Assembly (NCBI GenBank): GCA_017394445.1
Contig: JAFPYT010000056.1
Location: 1 to 33,993, forward strand
Direction: 5' to 3'
Origin: Bacteroidales bacterium
Lineage (GTDB): Bacteria > Bacteroidota > Bacteroidia > Bacteroidales > UBA3824
Length of the DNA stretch: 33,993 nt
Under the pieces are notes generated by a model. That model ran no database searches. It saw only the letters and a program-made list of their open reading frames with translations, and was not told where the DNA came from. This document shows, piece after piece, positions 19 to 18,933 of this stretch (positions are counted from its first letter, which is position 1; each line of letters opens with the position of its first letter). The position numbers were made by a program, and so were the translations under genes.

Positions 19-465
19 ATGAAGAAGATTAATGTAAAGAAGATTATGGCAACGGCCGTTATGCTCAGCGTTGCATTTGTAAATCCGACTAACACTTACA
101 GCAATGTAAATGCCGACACACTTAAAGGTTACACCATCGACGGTGAAATTATGCCGGAAGTAGAAACGGTGGAAGAAGGCCTCGCAGTTGAGGATTGGAT
201 GATGGACGCTTACACTTACGATGAAACAGCGCTCCGCATCGAAAACTGGATGTTAGCAGCCGAAACAGTTGCAACAGAAGGCAATTTTGAACTTGAAGGT
301 TGGATGTTAGAAACTGTTAACGAAGCCGAACCCGCTCTTGCAGTGGAAAATTGGATGGCTGAAACCTACGAGGCAAACGAAACTGCTCTCAACGTAGAAG
401 ATTGGATGTTTAAATCCAACGAAGTAACCGAAGAGCCGCTCGAATTAGAGGCTTGGATGTTTTAA
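19..465 (+). CDS. Small secreted protein with six Glu-x-Trp-Met repeats
   Basis: A 148-residue protein starting at the ATG at 19; a TTG nine bases earlier would also be in frame but adds only three residues. The N-terminus (lysine-rich, then a hydrophobic stretch ending near NVNA) looks like a signal peptide, so the product is probably exported. The rest is acidic and is built of units of about 17 residues, each opening with [V/I/L]-E-[D/N/G/A]-W-M: VEDWM, IENWM, LEGWM, VENWM, VEDWM, LEAWM. The protein ends one residue after the sixth WM. Small secreted proteins with such E-x-W-M motifs are, as far as I recall, found in Bacteroidota, but I know no function for them. It is a single gene at the window edge and its promoter is not in view. 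A structural, metal- or membrane-interacting role, or a multi-unit peptide precursor, is possible but unproven. Confidence 0.8.
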   Translation: MKKINVKKIMATAVMLSVAFVNPTNTYSNVNADTLKGYTIDGEIMPEVETVEEGLAVEDWMMDAYTYDETALRIENWMLAAETVATEGNFELEGWMLETVNEAEPALAVENWMAETYEANETALNVEDWMFKSNEVTEEPLELEAWMF

Positions 466-489
466 ACAACACAAAATCAGATGAAAAGT

Positions 490-567
490 TTCCGACACAG
501 GGTCGGAAGACATTCGGTTCCAAAGGGGAACCGAGTGGGACGAGAGGCGGGCAAAACCGCTTTTTTT
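490..567 (+). ncRNA. Three consecutive hairpins ending in a terminator
   Basis: Downstream of the repeat protein there are three inverted repeats in a row. Hairpin 1 (490-508) pairs TTCCGAC with GTCGGAA around the loop ACAGG. Hairpin 2 (514-534) pairs TCGGTTCC with GGAACCGA around the loop AAAGG. Hairpin 3 (547-560) pairs GCGG with CCGC and is followed by seven T at 561-567, as in an intrinsic terminator. The two first stems are 7 and 8 perfect base pairs and their five-base loops both end in AGG. Only the third hairpin is needed for termination, so the first two may be a 3'-UTR element or a small RNA. I do not recognise a known RNA family. Confidence 0.6.
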
Positions 568-10323: not shown

Positions 10324-12813
10324 ATGAACCTAAGCGAAGTAGAAATCGACCAAAAGGCCGTAATAACCAAAATCAAAGGACGCGGAACATTCCGCAAAAG
10401 AGTAATGGAAATGGGTTTTGTTAAGGGCAAAACCGTCCACGTTATCAAACAGGCTCCCCTCAACGACCCCATAGAATACGAAATTATGGGATACCACCTT
10501 TCGCTCCGCCGTCGCGAGGCTGAAATGATTGAGGTTGTATCGATGGAACACATTGTGGAGGCTGCCGCCAACCAAACCGAAAACCTTACTATCGAGGAGG
10601 TTATCAAAAACGAGGTGGAAGACCACGGACGCATTGTCAATGTGGCTCTTGTGGGAAATCCCAACTGCGGCAAAACCACTTTCTACAACTACGCTTCGGG
10701 CAGCAAAGAACGCGTGGGCAACTACTCTGGCGTTACCGTGGATGCCAAAACAGCCAAATTTGAATACGAGGGTTACACCATCAACATCACCGACTTGCCC
10801 GGAACATACTCGCTTACAGCATATTCTGCCGAAGAAATCTACGTGCGCAAATTTATCACCGAGCAAAATCCCGATGTGATTATAAATATGGTAGATGCGT
10901 CGAACATAGAACGTAACCTCTACCTCACCACGCAACTTATCGACCTTGACGTAAAGGTGGTTGTGGCGCTCAATATGTACGACGAAGTGGAGACCCGCGG
11001 CGACAAACTCGACTACATCTCGCTCGGGCGTATGCTCGGCATTCCATTTGTGCCAGTGGTAAGCAACAAGGGGCGCGGTTTTGGCGTGCTGTTCGACACC
11101 GTGATACGCGCTTTTGAAGATAAGTCGCCCACAATCCGCCACATACACATCAACTACGGTCACGACATCGAAAACTCCATCAAAGAGATTCAAGAAAAGA
11201 TATTTCTCCACAACGACAACGCCATTCTCTCGCGTATTCCGTCGCGCTTTATGGCTCTGAAACTCTTGGAGAAGGATGCCGACATCAAAAAAATAGTGCT
11301 TACCAACACCATCGAGGGCGAGCACAGCCACAATACCTACAAAGGGGGATTTGAAACCAACGAGCACCGCACCACCCACACCGATGCGCCAAGTTGCATT
11401 ATCGAAGAAACCGACCGTCAGATTGCATCGCTCGAAGATGCTTACAAAAACGACACCGAAAGCCTCATCACCGACACCCGTTACGGTTTTATAGCCGGCG
11501 CGCTCAAAGAGACTTACACCGTGGGGCACACCGACACCCGCAAGTTTACCGACCGTATCGACCGTGTGCTTACCCACCGCATCTGGGGAATGCCTGTTTT
11601 CTTATTAATCATTTTCTTAATGTTTGAGGTAACGTTTATCCTCGGCGACTACCCTATGCAATGGATCGAATCGGGCGTGGAATTTCTCGGCGACCTTATG
11701 CGCGGTGTTCTGCCCGACGGTGCGCTCAAAGACCTCATCTGCGACGGCATAATCGGCGGCGTGGGCGGCGTAATTGTCTTTTTGCCAAACATTGTGCTCT
11801 TGTTTATGTTTATCTCAATAATGGAAGACAGCGGATATATGGCTCGTGTGGCATTCCTCACCGACCGTATAATGCACAACATTGGTCTGCACGGCAAATC
11901 GTTTATCCCCTTGATAATGGGCTTTGGCTGCAACGTACCCGCAGTAATGGCAACCCGCACGCTCGAAAACCGTTCAGACCGGCTTCTCACCACGCTTATA
12001 AATCCTTATATGAGCTGCTCGGCGCGTCTGCCTTTGTATGCAGTAATGGCAGGAGCGTTTTTTGCCAACCATCAGGGCTTGGTAACGTTCAGCGTATATG
12101 GCGTGGGTGTGCTTATAGCCGGACTAACAGCCATACTTTTGCGCAAAACCGCATTCAAAAGTCAGGACGCACCTTTTGTAATGGAACTCCCCCCCTACCG
12201 CTTTCCAACCGTCCGCAGCGTATTAAAACACATGTGGGAAAAGGCTCAGCAGTATCTTAAAAAAATGGGCGGCGTAATATTGATAGCATCTATAATAATT
12301 TGGGTGCTTGGATATTTTCCGCAGCACACCGAAGAAACCGACCGCATAGAGGCTCAGATAGCACAGGCACAGGGCAACGATTCGCTTGTGGCTGAACTCG
12401 AAATAGAACTTGCCTACGCACATCAAGAAGGCAGCATAATAGGTCGCCTCGGCAAATTTATCGAACCTGTAATCGCTCCCCTCGGCTTCAATTGGAAAAT
12501 GGGCGTAAGCATCATCACCGGCGTAGCCGCCAAAGAGATAGTGGTGTCTACAATGGGCGTGCTCTACCACGGCGACGGCGAAGACACCGCCTCGCTATCC
12601 GAAAAACTTGTGAGCGACACCTCCACCGACCCTCTCACCCCTGCGCAAGCCTACGGCTTTATGCTCTTTGTGCTCATCTATATGCCCTGCATAGCCACCG
12701 CCGTCGCCATCCGCAAAGAAACCGGCTCTCGCAAATGGATGTGGCTCTCAATAGGTTACAGCGTAGCATTAGCGTGGATTGTGGCTTGGGTGGTGAATAT
12801 GATATTTGGGTAA
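10324..12813 (+). CDS. feoB: FeoA-FeoB fusion ferrous iron transporter
   Basis: An 829-residue inner membrane protein that imports Fe(II). Residues about 1-75 form a FeoA SH3-like domain (MNLSEVEIDQKAVITKI ... RGTFRKRVMEMGFVKG). The FeoB G domain follows, with G1 GNPNCGKT (111-118), GVTVD, DLPG (157-160) and NMYD (217-220). After a helical region come the Gate/core membrane segments, including MPVFLLIIFLMFEVTF, LVFMEDSGYMAR-like SIMEDSGYMARVAF, IPLIMGFGCNVPAVMATRT with the conserved Cys, and INPYMSCSARLPLYAVMAG. Such fused proteins are typical of Bacteroides and relatives. The ATG at 10324 is chosen because the longer start lies in the promoter. The region of about 315-365 is a His/Thr-rich insert. 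Convergent with the BspA-like gene. Confidence 0.95.
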   Translation: MNLSEVEIDQKAVITKIKGRGTFRKRVMEMGFVKGKTVHVIKQAPLNDPIEYEIMGYHLSLRRREAEMIEVVSMEHIVEAAANQTENLTIEEVIKNEVEDHGRIVNVALVGNPNCGKTTFYNYASGSKERVGNYSGVTVDAKTAKFEYEGYTINITDLPGTYSLTAYSAEEIYVRKFITEQNPDVIINMVDASNIERNLYLTTQLIDLDVKVVVALNMYDEVETRGDKLDYISLGRMLGIPFVPVVSNKGRGFGVLFDTVIRAFEDKSPTIRHIHINYGHDIENSIKEIQEKIFLHNDNAILSRIPSRFMALKLLEKDADIKKIVLTNTIEGEHSHNTYKGGFETNEHRTTHTDAPSCIIEETDRQIASLEDAYKNDTESLITDTRYGFIAGALKETYTVGHTDTRKFTDRIDRVLTHRIWGMPVFLLIIFLMFEVTFILGDYPMQWIESGVEFLGDLMRGVLPDGALKDLICDGIIGGVGGVIVFLPNIVLLFMFISIMEDSGYMARVAFLTDRIMHNIGLHGKSFIPLIMGFGCNVPAVMATRTLENRSDRLLTTLINPYMSCSARLPLYAVMAGAFFANHQGLVTFSVYGVGVLIAGLTAILLRKTAFKSQDAPFVMELPPYRFPTVRSVLKHMWEKAQQYLKKMGGVILIASIIIWVLGYFPQHTEETDRIEAQIAQAQGNDSLVAELEIELAYAHQEGSIIGRLGKFIEPVIAPLGFNWKMGVSIITGVAAKEIVVSTMGVLYHGDGEDTASLSEKLVSDTSTDPLTPAQAYGFMLFVLIYMPCIATAVAIRKETGSRKWMWLSIGYSVALAWIVAWVVNMIFG

Positions 12814-12841: not shown

Positions 12842-15805
12842 CTATTCCACCAACACCTTAAATCCACTTTTTTCACCATTACAAATCAATGCGCCAATGT
12901 AATGCCCTAAGGGTAGCTCAATTGTATTGGTTTGCTTGGCGTTGGTTATTGACTTAACAATATTGCCGGTGCTGTTGGTAATATAGATTTCGTATTTATT
13001 GTCGGGATTGTAATTTATGATTTGTAAAGTAAATCTTTGATTTGCCACCACAGGATTGGGATATACAACCACATCGGCTTTGAGAGCTTTGGCTGAAACA
13101 TTCTGTTCAAACGGACATGCTAAAACGTCGATACCAACGCGTGTTTTCATTTTGCATTTATAACTACCAGCAAACTCCGGCTCGGTGTAATATTGTTTGC
13201 GGGCATTGGGTATGTCAATATCGTTTTTAACCCACTGATATTCCGAAAACAATGTATCGTGATTGTCTACAAACATAACATTGCGATACAATAGTTTTAT
13301 TACACCTTTTACCATATTGATTTTTAAAGTAAAATTATATTGCTCTGATTCCTCATTACCATCAGTAAAAACTATTTGACCTTGATAATAATTTGGTTTT
13401 AAATTAGATGGTATTCTTACATTGATACGCGAATCACCGGCATCTATTGTACCGCTTTGTGGTTCTACAACGTTGTTTTCTACTGTTAGACGGTATCCTG
13501 TAATATTTCCCGATATGGTTTTAAATTTGAGCTTTACTGTGCCATCGCCATCAACACAAAATAATTCAGGGTCGATGTCTTCTTGAACAACGCTTCCTTT
13601 TTCGATTTCTATTTCAAACTCTGATTTAACAGTTAAAACGCCTTTTACAAATGTAATATCATAATTATTAGATGAAAGCCCTCTGGGGATAATATCATAC
13701 TTACCCGCACCGGCAGATGGATTGTATTCGCAATCGAATAAAAGTGTGCCGGATAAAACACTTTCGTTTTCGTCACCTACAAAGCCGGAGTATGTAGCGG
13801 TAAAATCAGGTATAGAAGCGGCATAGTCGATGGTTTGGCTGTTGGCAGTAATGGTAAGAGGTTTAGGAGAAATTGTTACCGAAAGAGAGGTTTCTGTTAC
13901 AGCTGCATATTTTTCGGTTTCGTCAACTTTGTACCAAACTACATAATCTTTGGCATCGGTGGCAATAGGCAACGTGGTAGCATATGCACCGTCATCAACT
14001 TTATACTGAATAGTAATATCTGATGGCACAGTACTTTCTAAGGTAATAAGGTTTTGCTTAGTACCATTATAAACTAAATCTTCTGCCGGATGTATTACAG
14101 AAATAGGTGCTTTAAGTTTCCAATATGCTTTGTAGATACGGTTGCCAACATCTCCGGCGGCAATGGTAACAGACGAAGATGACGCACCGATAACATCTCC
14201 TTTCGGCGATACACGTTCCCAATATTGCAACTCATAACCTTCTCTCTCGGGTTTATCTAAGGTAACAGCCGAATTACCATCAAATGATGAAGGGGTATGA
14301 GTATGATAAGTAGGAGTTTCATCATCAGCCCATTGATAGAATATTTTGTAGTTGTCGGTGGTGAGTAAGCCGCCTTTGTTAGCGTGGGCGTAGGCTTTGT
14401 CGCATGGCGCATTTGTCCACTCCAATGTACCGTCGTTACCGATAAGTTGATTACAACGATAAAACATTTGATCACTCTCTGTAACATTATCGGGCTTCCA
14501 ATTATTATTTACAAATATTGTTGTAAGATTTTCGCAATCAGCGAACATTCCATTCATATTAGTAACTTTGTTGATATCGAATCCTGTTAAATCAAGGGTT
14601 GTAAGATTATTGCACATTAAGAACATTTCCTTCATATTCGTAACCTCAGAGGTATTGAGATTTTCTTTTATGCCGATAATTTCGGATAAGTTTTTCATAC
14701 CCGAAAACCAACTATAACACGTTGTCGGGCGGGCATCTTGGAATGATTTATCAAATTTCACTGTAGTAAAATCCATACTATATGGTATCCATTCGGGGGC
14801 ATCGTCGTTCTTATTTAAATAAAATGCATCAGTGGATTTTTTATCATCACATTTAAATGTAAGCGTTTTGCCATCATCGGACATTTCGGCGTATGGACCT
14901 TTGTATGTAAAGTAGCCGGGTGCAGACGTGCCACCATCGATGCGAGCATAAGTTATGTCGATATTGCTTTCATCATATCCTAAACCTGCGCCACCGACAA
15001 GAGAATTGCAACCATAAAACATATTGTCACCATTTGTACCTTCTCTAATATTCCATTTATCTCTTACATATATGGAGGTAAGACTGATGCAACCAGAGAA
15101 CATGCTCGTCATATCCGTAACTTTTTCCGTATTAAAATTGCTTAGGTCAAGACTTGAAACGTTGATACTGCTGAACATACCATTCATATTAGTAACATTT
15201 TCAGTATTAAAACCGCTTACATCAAGTTCGGTAATATAAAGCACATGGAACATAAAACCCATATCAGTAACTTTATCAGTTTTAAAACCGCTTACATCAA
15301 GTTTTTCAATAGTCAAACATTCGTAGAACATACCACGCATATCCGTAACATTTTCTGTATTAAAACCGCTCACATCAATACTTTCAAGATCATTACATTC
15401 ATCGAACATAAAACTCATATTCGTAACCTCCGAAGTATTGAGATATTCTTTCATTCCCGTAATAGTGACCAGAGATCTCATTCCACTAAACCAATAATAA
15501 CACGAGGTCGGTCTGCACTCTGCAAACGACGGCTCAAAAACAACGGCTGTAATAACATTTGAAGAATACCAACCGGGGTAATTATAACCCTCGTTCATTA
15601 AAAACACATTATCCCCATCTGGTTTTGTGCCATACTTAAATGTGAGGAGTTGTCCGTAACCATCAGGATTATCGGTAAGTACCGCATAGCCTACCTTCTG
15701 CGCCTTTGCCATTGATGCAAATGCAATCATCATTATAAAAAAGATAACAATGGATTTGGCGACATTGCCACCAATAAAGAATTCTGTAAATTTATAGGTT
15801 CGCAT
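12842..15805 (-). CDS. BspA-like leucine-rich surface protein with MBG-like and T9SS sorting domains
   Basis: A 987-residue secreted protein. Residues 1-36 form a long signal peptide ending AKAQ. Two blocks of BspA-type (DUF285) repeats follow, about 88-270 and 357-455, with units such as LDVSGFNTENVTDMRGMF spaced about 24 residues. Then come a Listeria-Bacteroides-like repeat region (about 480-565), an MBG-like immunoglobulin domain (about 645-728, KPLTITANSQTIDYAASIPDF), beta-rich modules, and a C-terminal domain of about 80 residues starting VVVYPNPVVANQRFTL, which matches the T9SS type A sorting domain. It is probably anchored to or released from the cell surface and may bind host or other cell proteins. 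A minus-strand promoter lies at 15832-15863. Confidence 0.9.
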   Translation of the reverse strand: MRTYKFTEFFIGGNVAKSIVIFFIMMIAFASMAKAQKVGYAVLTDNPDGYGQLLTFKYGTKPDGDNVFLMNEGYNYPGWYSSNVITAVVFEPSFAECRPTSCYYWFSGMRSLVTITGMKEYLNTSEVTNMSFMFDECNDLESIDVSGFNTENVTDMRGMFYECLTIEKLDVSGFKTDKVTDMGFMFHVLYITELDVSGFNTENVTNMNGMFSSINVSSLDLSNFNTEKVTDMTSMFSGCISLTSIYVRDKWNIREGTNGDNMFYGCNSLVGGAGLGYDESNIDITYARIDGGTSAPGYFTYKGPYAEMSDDGKTLTFKCDDKKSTDAFYLNKNDDAPEWIPYSMDFTTVKFDKSFQDARPTTCYSWFSGMKNLSEIIGIKENLNTSEVTNMKEMFLMCNNLTTLDLTGFDINKVTNMNGMFADCENLTTIFVNNNWKPDNVTESDQMFYRCNQLIGNDGTLEWTNAPCDKAYAHANKGGLLTTDNYKIFYQWADDETPTYHTHTPSSFDGNSAVTLDKPEREGYELQYWERVSPKGDVIGASSSSVTIAAGDVGNRIYKAYWKLKAPISVIHPAEDLVYNGTKQNLITLESTVPSDITIQYKVDDGAYATTLPIATDAKDYVVWYKVDETEKYAAVTETSLSVTISPKPLTITANSQTIDYAASIPDFTATYSGFVGDENESVLSGTLLFDCEYNPSAGAGKYDIIPRGLSSNNYDITFVKGVLTVKSEFEIEIEKGSVVQEDIDPELFCVDGDGTVKLKFKTISGNITGYRLTVENNVVEPQSGTIDAGDSRINVRIPSNLKPNYYQGQIVFTDGNEESEQYNFTLKINMVKGVIKLLYRNVMFVDNHDTLFSEYQWVKNDIDIPNARKQYYTEPEFAGSYKCKMKTRVGIDVLACPFEQNVSAKALKADVVVYPNPVVANQRFTLQIINYNPDNKYEIYITNSTGNIVKSITNAKQTNTIELPLGHYIGALICNGEKSGFKVLVE

Positions 15806-15863: not shown

Positions 15864-15880
15864 AAACTAAAAGGCAAATT

Positions 15881-16002
15881 ATGCCACCCATCAAAATTAT
15901 ACCATCCGCATTTGAAAAGTCTCTCGCACTGGAGTTGTGGGCAAGCCTGTGGTGGTGCTATCTAACAACGACGGCTGTGTGGTGGCTCGCAGCAACGATG
16001 TT
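15881..16002 (+). pseudogene. umuC: Decayed 5' end of umuC (Y-family DNA polymerase)
   Basis: From 15937 a frame reads GKPVVVLSNNDGCVVARSND, the highly conserved N-terminal signature of UmuC, the catalytic subunit of error-prone polymerase V. Upstream, from the ATG at 15881, a different frame reads PSAFEKSLALEL, which aligns with the usual Y-A-S-C-E-x-x-F-x-P-x-L just before G-K-P, so a frameshift lies around 15932-15940. After about 16002 all similarity ends and the rest of the gene, normally about 420 residues, is missing; the 43-bp repeat array follows. A plus-strand promoter is still present at 15829-15859. It is a non-functional remnant; whether its loss was caused by insertion of the array is inference. 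Confidence 0.75.
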
Positions 16003-16070: not shown

Positions 16071-16520
16071 TTTGCGGCGGGGTGATATACAATTGGTAGA
16101 TGGAATATACGTCATTATAACGATGTGATAAACAATTGCTATAAATTTATGCCAGCATTGCCACAACGAGGTCAACAATTGGTAGTTTGTTATTACAACA
16201 TCGCTGCAATGTGGTATATTACGTATTGAGGATAATGGCATTGTGGCTGCAATGTGGTTAATAATCAGTAATCAGAGTTAACGCCATTGCTGCAAGGGTG
16301 CATAAAATGTTGACACATTGTTAACCTCATCGCTACAACAATATATAAAAAAAAAGCAATTGACAACCACGTTGCTACAAAGGCGTTATAAAATGATAAC
16401 CGATATTATATCCATTTGTACAATTACGGCATCAAACACGAGCAATTATTATATCAAATGCTACAAGGGTAAACATAGAGGAGAACGATCGTTGGCACTG
16501 TTTCAATAATGGCATAAAAA
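16071..16520. repeat. Degenerate tandem array with 43-bp period
   Basis: Units begin at 16071, 16114, 16157, 16200, 16243, 16286, 16329, 16371, 16414 and 16457, with a weak one at 16500. All are exactly 43 bp except one of 42 bp. The best-conserved part is the unit start, consensus ATTGCTACAA (for example ATTGCCACAA at 16157, ATCGCTGCAA at 16200, GTGGCTGCAA at 16243, ATTGCTGCAA at 16286, GTTGCTACAA at 16371), preceded by a TTAACNCC-like end of the previous unit. The first three units also share ACAATTGGTAG-like centres at 16089, 16132 and 16175. The centres of later units vary. The array is AT-rich and has no convincing coding frame, and the period is not a multiple of three. It lies between the umuC remnant and a 44-aa ORF. 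Confidence 0.75.
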
Positions 16521-16651
16521 AAGTAAAGTATTTATTAATATCTTTTCAGAAAATAATTGTTTGTAGAAAAAAGAGTATTATAATTGTCGCGGAAAAAACA
16601 AAAGATTAATAATATAATAAACATAGTTTTTTATTCAAAAACGAACGCACC

Positions 16652-16786
16652 ATGGCAAAAGAAATGCTTTCACAAAGCAAGATATCGCTTCATAGCCTTA
16701 GAAATGATATGCTTAGCGTGTTGGTGAGCAAGTTGGAAGGCTCGTCGAAACTTGGACCATTTTTTGTTAACATGATTTTTGAGTAA
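16652..16786 (+). CDS. Possible 44-residue small protein
   Basis: An ORF starting at the ATG in ACCATGGC encodes MAKEMLSQSKISLHSLRNDM and a further 24 residues ending FFVNMIFE. It is too short for statistics, but a strong intrinsic terminator begins 2 bp after its stop codon, which supports a real transcript ending there. No known motif is recognised. The mix of a polar N-terminal half and a C-terminal hydrophobic stretch (KLGPFFVNMIF) could suit a small membrane-associated or peptide-precursor protein. A weak promoter (TTTG at 16560, TAATTGTC at 16581) is possible. The ORF lies 130 bp after the 43-bp repeat array. Confidence 0.45.
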   Translation: MAKEMLSQSKISLHSLRNDMLSVLVSKLEGSSKLGPFFVNMIFE

Positions 16787-16943: not shown

Positions 16944-17351
16944 ATGCAAAAGCTAAAACAAATTATCATTAAACGTTGGGTAAAAATCCTTTCGGTATTG
17001 CTGGGTATTATGGGAATTGCTGCCTGCTCATCAGAAATGCTTTACGGCTGTCCTAATGCCGACTACAAGTTTAACGGCAATGTTAAAAACCAAGACGGTG
17101 AGAACCTCGAAAAAATGAATATTTCGGTTAAATACTACTACCAAACAACCCAAACCGACGCTGAGGGCAACTACAATATGGAGTTTAACCACCTTTTGAA
17201 CAACCCCATTACCATATATTGCTCCGACCCCAACGAAGAATACAAGCCAGACTCATTGGTATTTTATGTGGAATACAAAGGCGGCGACGGCGACTGGTAT
17301 CAGGGCAAGGCCGAAAAAACCGTCAACTTTGTACTCAAAAAGAAAGAGTAA
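16944..17351 (+). CDS. Putative lipoprotein of the rSAM-associated type
   Basis: A 135-residue lipoprotein: basic N-terminus, hydrophobic segment (about 13-27) and a lipobox ending GIAAC, with the lipidated Cys at 28. The mature part reads LYGCPNADYKFNGNVKNQDGE, then strands ending in VNFVLKKKE, like a small carboxypeptidase-regulatory beta-sandwich. The N-terminal pattern (LLG...C, then YGCP-A-Y) resembles the Bacteroidota family of putative lipoproteins encoded next to a radical SAM gene (the rSAM/lipoprotein system). No radical SAM gene is nearby in this window, so the function and the modification, if any, are unknown. The next gene starts 49 bp later on the same strand. Confidence 0.78.
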   Translation: MQKLKQIIIKRWVKILSVLLGIMGIAACSSEMLYGCPNADYKFNGNVKNQDGENLEKMNISVKYYYQTTQTDAEGNYNMEFNHLLNNPITIYCSDPNEEYKPDSLVFYVEYKGGDGDWYQGKAEKTVNFVLKKKE

Positions 17352-17400
17352 TGGCATAACGTTAAAGCATAATCATTAAAATCAAACACATTATAAAGAT

Positions 17401-18933
17401 ATGAAAAAACACTTTTTATTAATAGCGCTTGCTGCTGCTATTGCTGCCTCATCGTGCAGCAAAGAAAAAAACGACGACCCAACTCCCGAACCCACCATCG
17501 ACCCGACACCTACCGGCGAGTTTACCCAAAAACTCAACTACACCGACGCCAACCAAATTATCTACAATCCCGATATGGGATTCTTCTCGTCGAAACTCGT
17601 TACCGTTACCCCCGACGGAGTTACCAACAAGGAATCGGTGATTAAAAAGATTACCAAACCGGCAGGACGTTTCAGCGGCACTTACAACAAAGACGACAAT
17701 TTTGACATTCTGCTGCTCAAAATCGACATCAGTGCGTTTTCGTCGCGCAACGGCGGCAAGGAAGAAAAACTCACCGACAAGGCTTTGAGCGACATTGCCG
17801 AAATACTCGCTTCGTTTAAAGGCACTGGCAAAACGGCTTTTGTGCAATTTGCCTACGACCCCGACTACGACGGCAAAAAGACCACCAACAGCAAGGGCGA
17901 GGAGGTTTATGCCGATGTAGAGCCCAAAGATTTCAACCTTTTGTTAGACCACGTTTCGCAAATAGTAAGCGTTGTAAAGCCTTACCAACAATACATCACC
18001 GCCATAAGATGCGGAATGGTAGGTCCTTACGGCGAAATGCATTCCACCATATTTGCAGGCGACAAAGACGGCCGCGAGTGCGGATACATTGCCGAAATAA
18101 TAGAACGCTTTGCCGACGCTATGCAGCAAGAAGGCGTTGACCTTCCGCTACTTGTACGTCAGCCGAGGTTTATGTACTCTTACCTTAATCTCACAGGAAA
18201 AACCGACTACAAAACCGCCACGCCCGACCTCACAGGCAAAAACCACATCTTTGGATTTTTTAACGACGGCTATCTCGGTTCGGATAGCGACCTTGGCACA
18301 TTCCGCAAAAAAGACCGCGAAGGCGAAATCCGTTTTATGTCGTACTTTACAGCAAACACACCATACGGCGGCGAAATAACCCGAAGCAGCGACAAAAGCG
18401 AAATTCCGCTGTGGCTATCCGACCTTGAAGGTTCTGTTAAAGAAATGTTCACAATTCACCTATCGTTCTTAAACATAGGCTATAAGGCAGAGGTATTTGA
18501 AGCATTAAGCGAAACCGGTTTCAAAGACGAAACTGCATTTCTCTATCTTTTTAAACATTTGGGTTATCGCTACGTGCTCACCAATTCGGAGATAGAGCCC
18601 AAGGGTAACACTGCCGAAATACGCCTGCAATACCGCAACGACGGATTTGCCAATATGCCATTCCACCGCAAGAAAGTTTTGTCGGTAATAGTCCAAACCG
18701 AAAGCGGCGATGCAATTGAGATACCTACCAAACAAGCATTTACCAATGCACCCAGCGGCACAAGCGACCCCACCTCAATAGCATTAACGGTATCTACCGA
18801 AAACCTCGCCGCAGGCAGATACACTATATATTTAAAAGTGTCGGACACCGACGGCTCTTACCCCGTACAATTTGCCAACGACCTTTGGAACAACGGATTG
18901 AAAGCAAACAAAATTGGAGAAATTGAGTTATAG
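17401..18933 (+). CDS. Lipoprotein with DUF4874 and DUF4832 domains
   Basis: A 510-residue lipoprotein with a lipobox at ASSC (Cys19) and a Pro/Thr-rich linker (about 29-38). Residues about 43-250 contain IIYNPDMGFFSS and LLKIDISAFSS, fitting DUF4874, a TIM-barrel-like domain with a conserved N-P-x-x-G-F. Residues about 250-510 contain FFNDGYLGSDSDLGTF and PYGGEITRS, fitting DUF4832, and finish in a beta-rich domain. Proteins with this pair are thought to act on carbohydrates by similarity to glycoside hydrolases, but no reaction is established to my knowledge. It is probably on the outer membrane surface. It may be co-transcribed with the preceding lipoprotein. Confidence 0.82.
   Translation: MKKHFLLIALAAAIAASSCSKEKNDDPTPEPTIDPTPTGEFTQKLNYTDANQIIYNPDMGFFSSKLVTVTPDGVTNKESVIKKITKPAGRFSGTYNKDDNFDILLLKIDISAFSSRNGGKEEKLTDKALSDIAEILASFKGTGKTAFVQFAYDPDYDGKKTTNSKGEEVYADVEPKDFNLLLDHVSQIVSVVKPYQQYITAIRCGMVGPYGEMHSTIFAGDKDGRECGYIAEIIERFADAMQQEGVDLPLLVRQPRFMYSYLNLTGKTDYKTATPDLTGKNHIFGFFNDGYLGSDSDLGTFRKKDREGEIRFMSYFTANTPYGGEITRSSDKSEIPLWLSDLEGSVKEMFTIHLSFLNIGYKAEVFEALSETGFKDETAFLYLFKHLGYRYVLTNSEIEPKGNTAEIRLQYRNDGFANMPFHRKKVLSVIVQTESGDAIEIPTKQAFTNAPSGTSDPTSIALTVSTENLAAGRYTIYLKVSDTDGSYPVQFANDLWNNGLKANKIGEIEL

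Follow-up and report, generated by a model that had tools for sequence, protein, structure and literature searches.

Degenerate tandem arrays in Bacteroidota are linked to genes of the DUF6261 family (PF19775), upstream of which they keep a near-fixed period of 41 to 43 bp, carry an excess of dyad symmetry with no strand bias, and diverge together with a gene that is under purifying selection. We infer that a protein binds the array and regulates the gene through it; that the array is an upstream cis-element of the DUF6261-family gene, bound by protein as double-stranded DNA and setting the gene's expression, is a reading whose chances we put at about even. One such array lies in the 33,993-nucleotide stretch of Bacteroidales DNA analyzed here (the window), where it precedes a truncated member of the family (Table 1).

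Autocorrelation of this region peaks at shifts of 43, 86, 129, and 171 bp (the last being 4 × 43 − 1), and a 43-bp shift gives a base matching of 0.48 to 0.49, compared to a mean of 0.28 over shifts of 1 to 199 and a maximum of 0.366 among 2,000 shuffles scored at periods of 38 to 47. The initial annotation had described a strict tandem 43-bp period with a single shorter unit and proposed self-alignment and autocorrelation as the check, with a missing 43-bp peak as the result that would count against it; the peak is present, and the description stands. The units are approximately 50% identical to one another, the mean column identity of the ten-unit alignment is 62%, and TRF reported no array here because the repeat is too degenerate. 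A profile of the unit matched nine of the ten units in register (E values of 4e-5 to 0.016) and the tenth with an E value of 0.038, with nothing comparable elsewhere in the window, although these matches speak to register only and are not independent support, the profile having been built from the same ten units. Weaker profile matches on the minus strand fall within the array at spacings that are mostly 41 to 44 bp or twice that, so the array is partly self-complementary, in register; single-strand folding of the array was not significant. The initial annotation also noted conserved heads and variable centers, a pattern that holds between units of the array but not between orthologs, where identity to the copy in genome G012 is 0.69 in the heads, 0.66 in the centers, and 0.65 in the tails. 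Heads that are no better kept than centers leave the idea of conserved binding words unsupported at the level of orthologs.

Table 1. Positions of the array and other features in the window
Feature	Position	Strand	Basis
51-bp coding repeat	186..557		
987-aa surface protein	12842..15805	-	
Two joined umuDC-type pieces (57 bp + 64 bp), outside the array element	15878..15998	+	Sequence identity
Degenerate tandem array of 43-bp repeats: ten units, one being 42 bp, plus a partial unit	16071..16513	+	Autocorrelation, unit alignment, profile matches
Single 42-bp unit	16372..16413	+	Repeat-family spacing of 43 and 42; autocorrelation peak at 171
Drifted Bacteroidota-type promoter, ATTG-N19-TATAATTG	16556..16586	+	Read from sequence
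44-aa ORF, truncated N terminus of a DUF6261-like gene	16652..16786	+	Comparison with the G012 gene
Radical-SAM-associated lipoprotein, then a 510-aa lipoprotein-like gene	16944..18933		

The locus is present in two genomes of the same genus, G017, whose copy is 96% identical to that of the window, and G012. The array core measures 432 bp in both the window and G012, with no net length change at 67% ungapped identity, whereas the adjacent 139-bp leader between array and start codon contains 8 gap openings at 81% identity. The length of the array is therefore held more tightly than the neighboring DNA, in agreement with the earlier proposal that spacing may be under selection. In G012 an intact 240-aa DUF6261-like gene stands behind the orthologous array and a promoter (TTTG-N19-TATATTTG), which is located in the leader between the two. 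The Bacteroidota promoter consensus consists of TTTG at -33 and TAnnTTTG at -7, and the G012 version is textbook-like. The first 34 codons of the 44-aa ORF in the window match the G012 gene, with a deletion thereafter, and we reject this ORF as a small protein in its own right, since it represents only the beginning of a longer gene that is truncated both in the window genome (G000) and in G017. Differences between the ORF and its G012 counterpart number 2, 2, and 15 at the three codon positions (dN 0.05, dS 2.0), and their almost exclusive restriction to third positions indicates that the window gene was under selection until recently. The G012 protein matches PF19775 weakly (E value of 0.0013; 19.1 bits, below the gathering cut-off of 27), so we refer to the window gene as DUF6261-like; our own profile of 54 proteins, the G012 protein included, covers this protein together with the rest of DUF6261. 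The array in the window, which has a period of 43 bp and ends approximately 140 bp upstream of position 16652, agrees with the criteria for DUF6261-linked arrays, a period of 41 to 43 bp and a place 0 to 500 bp ahead of the start codon, and in our reading it is a relic, its gene having been truncated recently and its phase being still intact. "Old decayed minisatellite," the alternative offered by the initial annotation, is partly apt for the window copy, with its truncated gene and drifted promoter, but it leaves the family-wide rule unexplained.

To the left of the array, the two umuDC-type pieces match two different stretches of G012 at 100% and 97% identity (G012:C114:10759-10815 and 11269-11332) and abut the array over a short shared word, CGCAGCAACGA. 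The array locus of G012 that is orthologous to the window's lacks this 121-bp remnant, and the G017 copy has only its last ∼11 bp (from about position 15988). The earlier suggestion that the array replaces most of a umuC gene is contradicted by these orthologs, and the absence of the pieces at the G012 locus likewise rules out the array as part of umuC; the fragment is a separate junction whose nearness to the array is accidental. Other features of the window include a surface protein with PARCEL/BspA-like repeats (coding period of 75 to 78 bp) and a weak T9SS C-terminal signal, which holds the strongest other repeat near the array; a coding repeat within a small protein that looks secreted and has many ENWM-like motifs; and, downstream of the truncated gene, the two lipoprotein-type genes, the first of which matches TIGR04134.

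We fetched approximately 120 DUF6261 loci in all, 85 of which were distinct with flanks in one set, and scanned ∼970 kb of these loci and their flanks for periodic sequence. An array with a period of 41 to 43 bp lies upstream of the gene in 66 of the 85 distinct loci, with a median of six units and a median distance of 161 bp between array end and start codon, and the same is seen at 11 of 16 loci from outside the Bacteroidales; roughly one DUF6261 locus in five had no detectable array. In a matched control that required a 40- to 44-bp array with z ≥ 6 within 900 bp upstream, such arrays preceded 58 of 83 DUF6261 genes (70%) versus only 1 of 109 other genes (0.9%) taken from the same contigs and having at least 200 bp of intergenic DNA. 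Arrays of 41- to 43-bp period elsewhere in the scanned stretches were few, and two of these were of REP type, around a transposase-like gene at locus L152. An exact match to the promoter consensus was found in 10 of 85 DUF6261 leaders compared to 0.2 expected, and at several loci the promoter is located after the array. A coding origin of the arrays was rejected, since neither 41 nor 43 is divisible by three and in the complete genome G198 no ORF of more than 150 aa spans most DUF6261-linked arrays.

DUF6261 scored above the cut-off in 24 of the 197 genomes searched, which belong largely to the same order, with up to 18 copies there, while G198 (4.3 Mb) encodes 38 copies. The 800 kb scanned in G198 include 13 DUF6261 genes, of which 12 are immediately preceded by an array; for the remaining gene the array lies 1.4 kb upstream, beyond a transposase-like ORF, and an insertion may have split this gene from its array. 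Two loci in G197 and G198 (L183 and L189) encode DUF6261 proteins that are 94% identical, one behind a strong 42-bp array and the other with a leader that lacks one, apparently due to an insertion. In a 400-kb stretch of G080, both DUF6261 genes have arrays. No DUF6261 match was recovered in phage records and only one on plasmids, in Prevotella nigrescens. At the P. nigrescens locus (NZ_CP082843; L093/L286), the DUF6261 gene has a 41-bp array and lies near mobB, mobC, and traG, and a 120-bp-period repeat occurs just upstream.

Across the 66 loci with arrays the period is 42 bp in 39, 41 bp in 21, and 43 bp in 6, one clade has 40 bp, and 41 to 43 bp is close to four turns of DNA. From one locus to the next, even inside a single genome, the units mostly show no sequence relationship, and the median identity between units of one array is 50%. 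Most arrays can be aligned between loci whose proteins are 75 to 100% identical, and most cannot once protein identity is under about 60%; the period is nearly unchanged between ortholog pairs, and the dN/dS of DUF6261 ranges from 0.04 to 0.20 in eight close pairs. Because alignability tracks protein identity, the genes are under purifying selection, and the period is kept, the array evidently ages with its gene and retains its spacing. The idea that a protein could bind along one face of the DNA, raised from the window array alone, fits with a near-fixed period of ∼42 bp in unrelated sequences across the phylum.

A significant dyad axis is present in 25 of 63 arrays when assessed against column-permuted arrays, and in 10 of these 25 a second axis follows at a distance of exactly half a period. 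Clear dyads include CTACATCGGGCCGATGTAG (L062) and CTTGCCCAAGCTGGGCAAG (L067), and at L083 and L148 one 41-bp unit holds both GTTGATCGGATCAAC and TTTTGCACGCGTGCAAAA, 20.5 bp apart. Compared to column-permuted arrays, folding energy has a mean z of -3.3 and -3.25 on the two strands, with no difference between strands (-0.08 ± 0.23), and among mismatches at dyad pairs G-U on the gene strand (64) is not above A-C (88). This lack of strand bias in folding and mismatches makes a DNA element more likely than an RNA one, the symmetry being DNA-like.

Under an RNA explanation, transcription of the array would yield consecutive small hairpins, which would bind the DUF6261 protein much as the RNA repeats of type III antitoxins bind their toxins. 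Repeat units of type III toxin-antitoxin loci are near 40 nt in length, which the unit length here resembles. A repeat array just ahead of one protein gene and fast divergence between loci also resemble type III systems (criteria of PMC8860590), and the units do fold better than permuted ones; however, the absence of strand preference and of a G-U excess, a promoter that follows the array at several loci, a predicted protein fold that has no solved relative, units that share a median identity of only 50% within one array, and the lack of any Rfam match within the window together render this explanation quite unlikely.

The DUF6261 protein is mostly acidic (median pI of 6.1), and its AlphaFold model is an all-alpha helical bundle (pLDDT of 94.7) for which a search of the PDB, transposases included, yielded no match with an E value below 0.001. 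Viral fold, PADLOC, and PHROG searches returned only low-confidence or helical-bundle matches, and in the literature found, which covers few subscription journals, DUF6261 is named once, in a single paper, with no description of an array. Since the protein is acidic and all-helical with no solved relative, the ligand of the array may be another protein, and direct DNA binding by DUF6261 is not supported. In the mechanism that we propose, some six units per locus, placed every 41 to 43 bp (∼four helical turns) upstream of the gene's promoter and in many cases carrying a dyad, often with a second dyad half-way, would allow a protein to assemble cooperatively along one face of the array and so set the expression level of that gene. 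Each gene-array pair would have a recognition of its own, and the ligand could be the DUF6261 protein, acting back on itself, or some other protein that binds DNA.

Periodic arrays also occur away from DUF6261. The 800 kb scanned in G198 contain about 35 other noncoding arrays, whose periods are 21 bp, 42 bp, and multiples thereof, at tandem, divergent, and convergent gene borders; four other noncoding arrays, with multiples of 20 to 21 bp, occur in the 400-kb stretch of G080, and P. nigrescens has 22-bp arrays. Of 23 such orphan arrays examined in G198 and G080, 5 lie between convergent genes. Four small Cro/C1-type HTH genes in G198 (94 to 116 aa; L225-L264) have an array of 21- or 42-bp period at or near their start and are a second gene class with such arrays. 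In G080 (G080:C1:280591-281050; L265-L284), a 63-bp (3 × 21) array lies upstream of a 240-aa helical-looking protein with no Pfam match above the cut-off and a DUF6261-like size and layout. An exclusive link to DUF6261 is thus rejected, and the family is the strongest association found for such arrays, not their sole home.

Orphan arrays bear on two further explanations. In the first, the arrays are neutral or selfish minisatellites, intergenic and functionless, which grow by slippage or gene conversion and travel with a mobile cassette. Direct repeats of 22, 23, and 41 nt described for Porphyromonas gingivalis (PMC4596501), the many orphans of G198, the 22-bp arrays of P. nigrescens, and the conjugation genes adjoining the DUF6261 gene of that species are all compatible with it, but it does not account for arrays at 70% of DUF6261 genes versus 0.9% of controls, for a period of 41 to 43 bp kept in unrelated sequences, for the excess of dyad symmetry, or for 432 bp with no net indel even though units have diverged to ∼50% identity, and we regard it as rather unlikely. 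In the second, the arrays are a REP/RAYT- or MITE-like family of dyads mobilized in trans, with DUF6261 as the partner protein. Linked and orphan arrays of the same genome can be related, with 88% identity over 285 bp (L104/L110) and, in G198, 83% over 258 bp (3202/78750), and at L152 43-bp REP-type arrays (CCCCAGCCTTCAGGCTGGGG) flank a Y1-transposase-like gene (+631 to +1748 from the DUF6261 match); against this, most arrays of one genome are unrelated in sequence, the DUF6261 model matches no solved transposase significantly, and a sequence search of the window's own genome found no second copy of its array, making mobilization of this kind very unlikely. Orphan relatives of linked arrays could be targets in trans or simple copies.

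Returning to the protein-bound cis-element that we favor, a broader and unlikely form of it is that DUF6261 and the arrays are an undescribed two-part Bacteroidota system, with a private code for each paralog, fixed helical spacing, and related orphans as targets in trans; the family might then assemble sequence-specific nucleoprotein structures along the chromosome. More generally, our findings connect a so far unexplained group of minisatellites in Bacteroidota with a single uncharacterized gene family under a rule of near-fixed period, free sequence, and preserved symmetry, which points to an undescribed DNA element in which spacing and mirror symmetry outweigh the letters themselves. Since neither sequence nor exact repeats are conserved in such a noncoding element, routine searches for tandem repeats or homology overlook it. 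The order is known to contain minisatellites of this size, but we found neither the gene linkage nor the period-without-sequence rule described in the literature searched, which includes few subscription journals.

Several known systems resemble these arrays in part. CRISPR loci have near-identical repeats and unique spacers, whereas unit identity in the window array is ∼50% and other arrays conserve the whole unit. Iteron and parS-type arrays share helically spaced dyads or direct repeats that are expected to bind protein on one face, but the analogy to iterons and partition sites drawn by the initial annotation is not supported, as the arrays are chromosomal, numerous, and linked to DUF6261 genes (which reach 38 copies on one chromosome, in G198); no gene for replication initiation or partition was seen to accompany the arrays, and no initiator or ParB-type gene was recognized among the ORFs of the 34-kb draft-genome contig. 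REP/RAYT systems likewise have dyad arrays with some copies elsewhere in the genome; most DUF6261 arrays, in contrast, have no transposase gene, a Y1 transposase ORF being recognized only at L152 and not around the window array, and the array sequences of paralogs differ. The type III toxin-antitoxin systems ToxIN and CptIN also place an array of similar unit length and fast-diverging units upstream of a single gene, but DUF6261 loci differ from them in having no strand asymmetry, a promoter that, wherever recognizable, follows the array and precedes the gene, units that diverge within an array, and a different predicted fold, all-alpha and with no PDB match at an E value below 0.001, in place of a ToxN fold. 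The closest parallels in size come from P. gingivalis, for which the covered part of PMC4596501 describes 23-nt BrickBuilt minisatellites, with one shared unit sequence in 19 places and leader and tail ends, and 41-nt tandem repeats in 464/PgRS elements, with no link to DUF6261 in that part. Both, like the DUF6261 arrays, belong to the Bacteroidales and have units of about two or four helical turns, and BrickBuilt repeats are similarly intergenic and imperfect within an array. BrickBuilt and PgRS elements, however, are defined by a shared unit and by inverted repeats at leader and tail, while the window array is single-copy and units are unrelated between most DUF6261 loci; what BrickBuilt shares among places is its unit, and what DUF6261 arrays share, each with units private to its locus, is the period and the gene family downstream.
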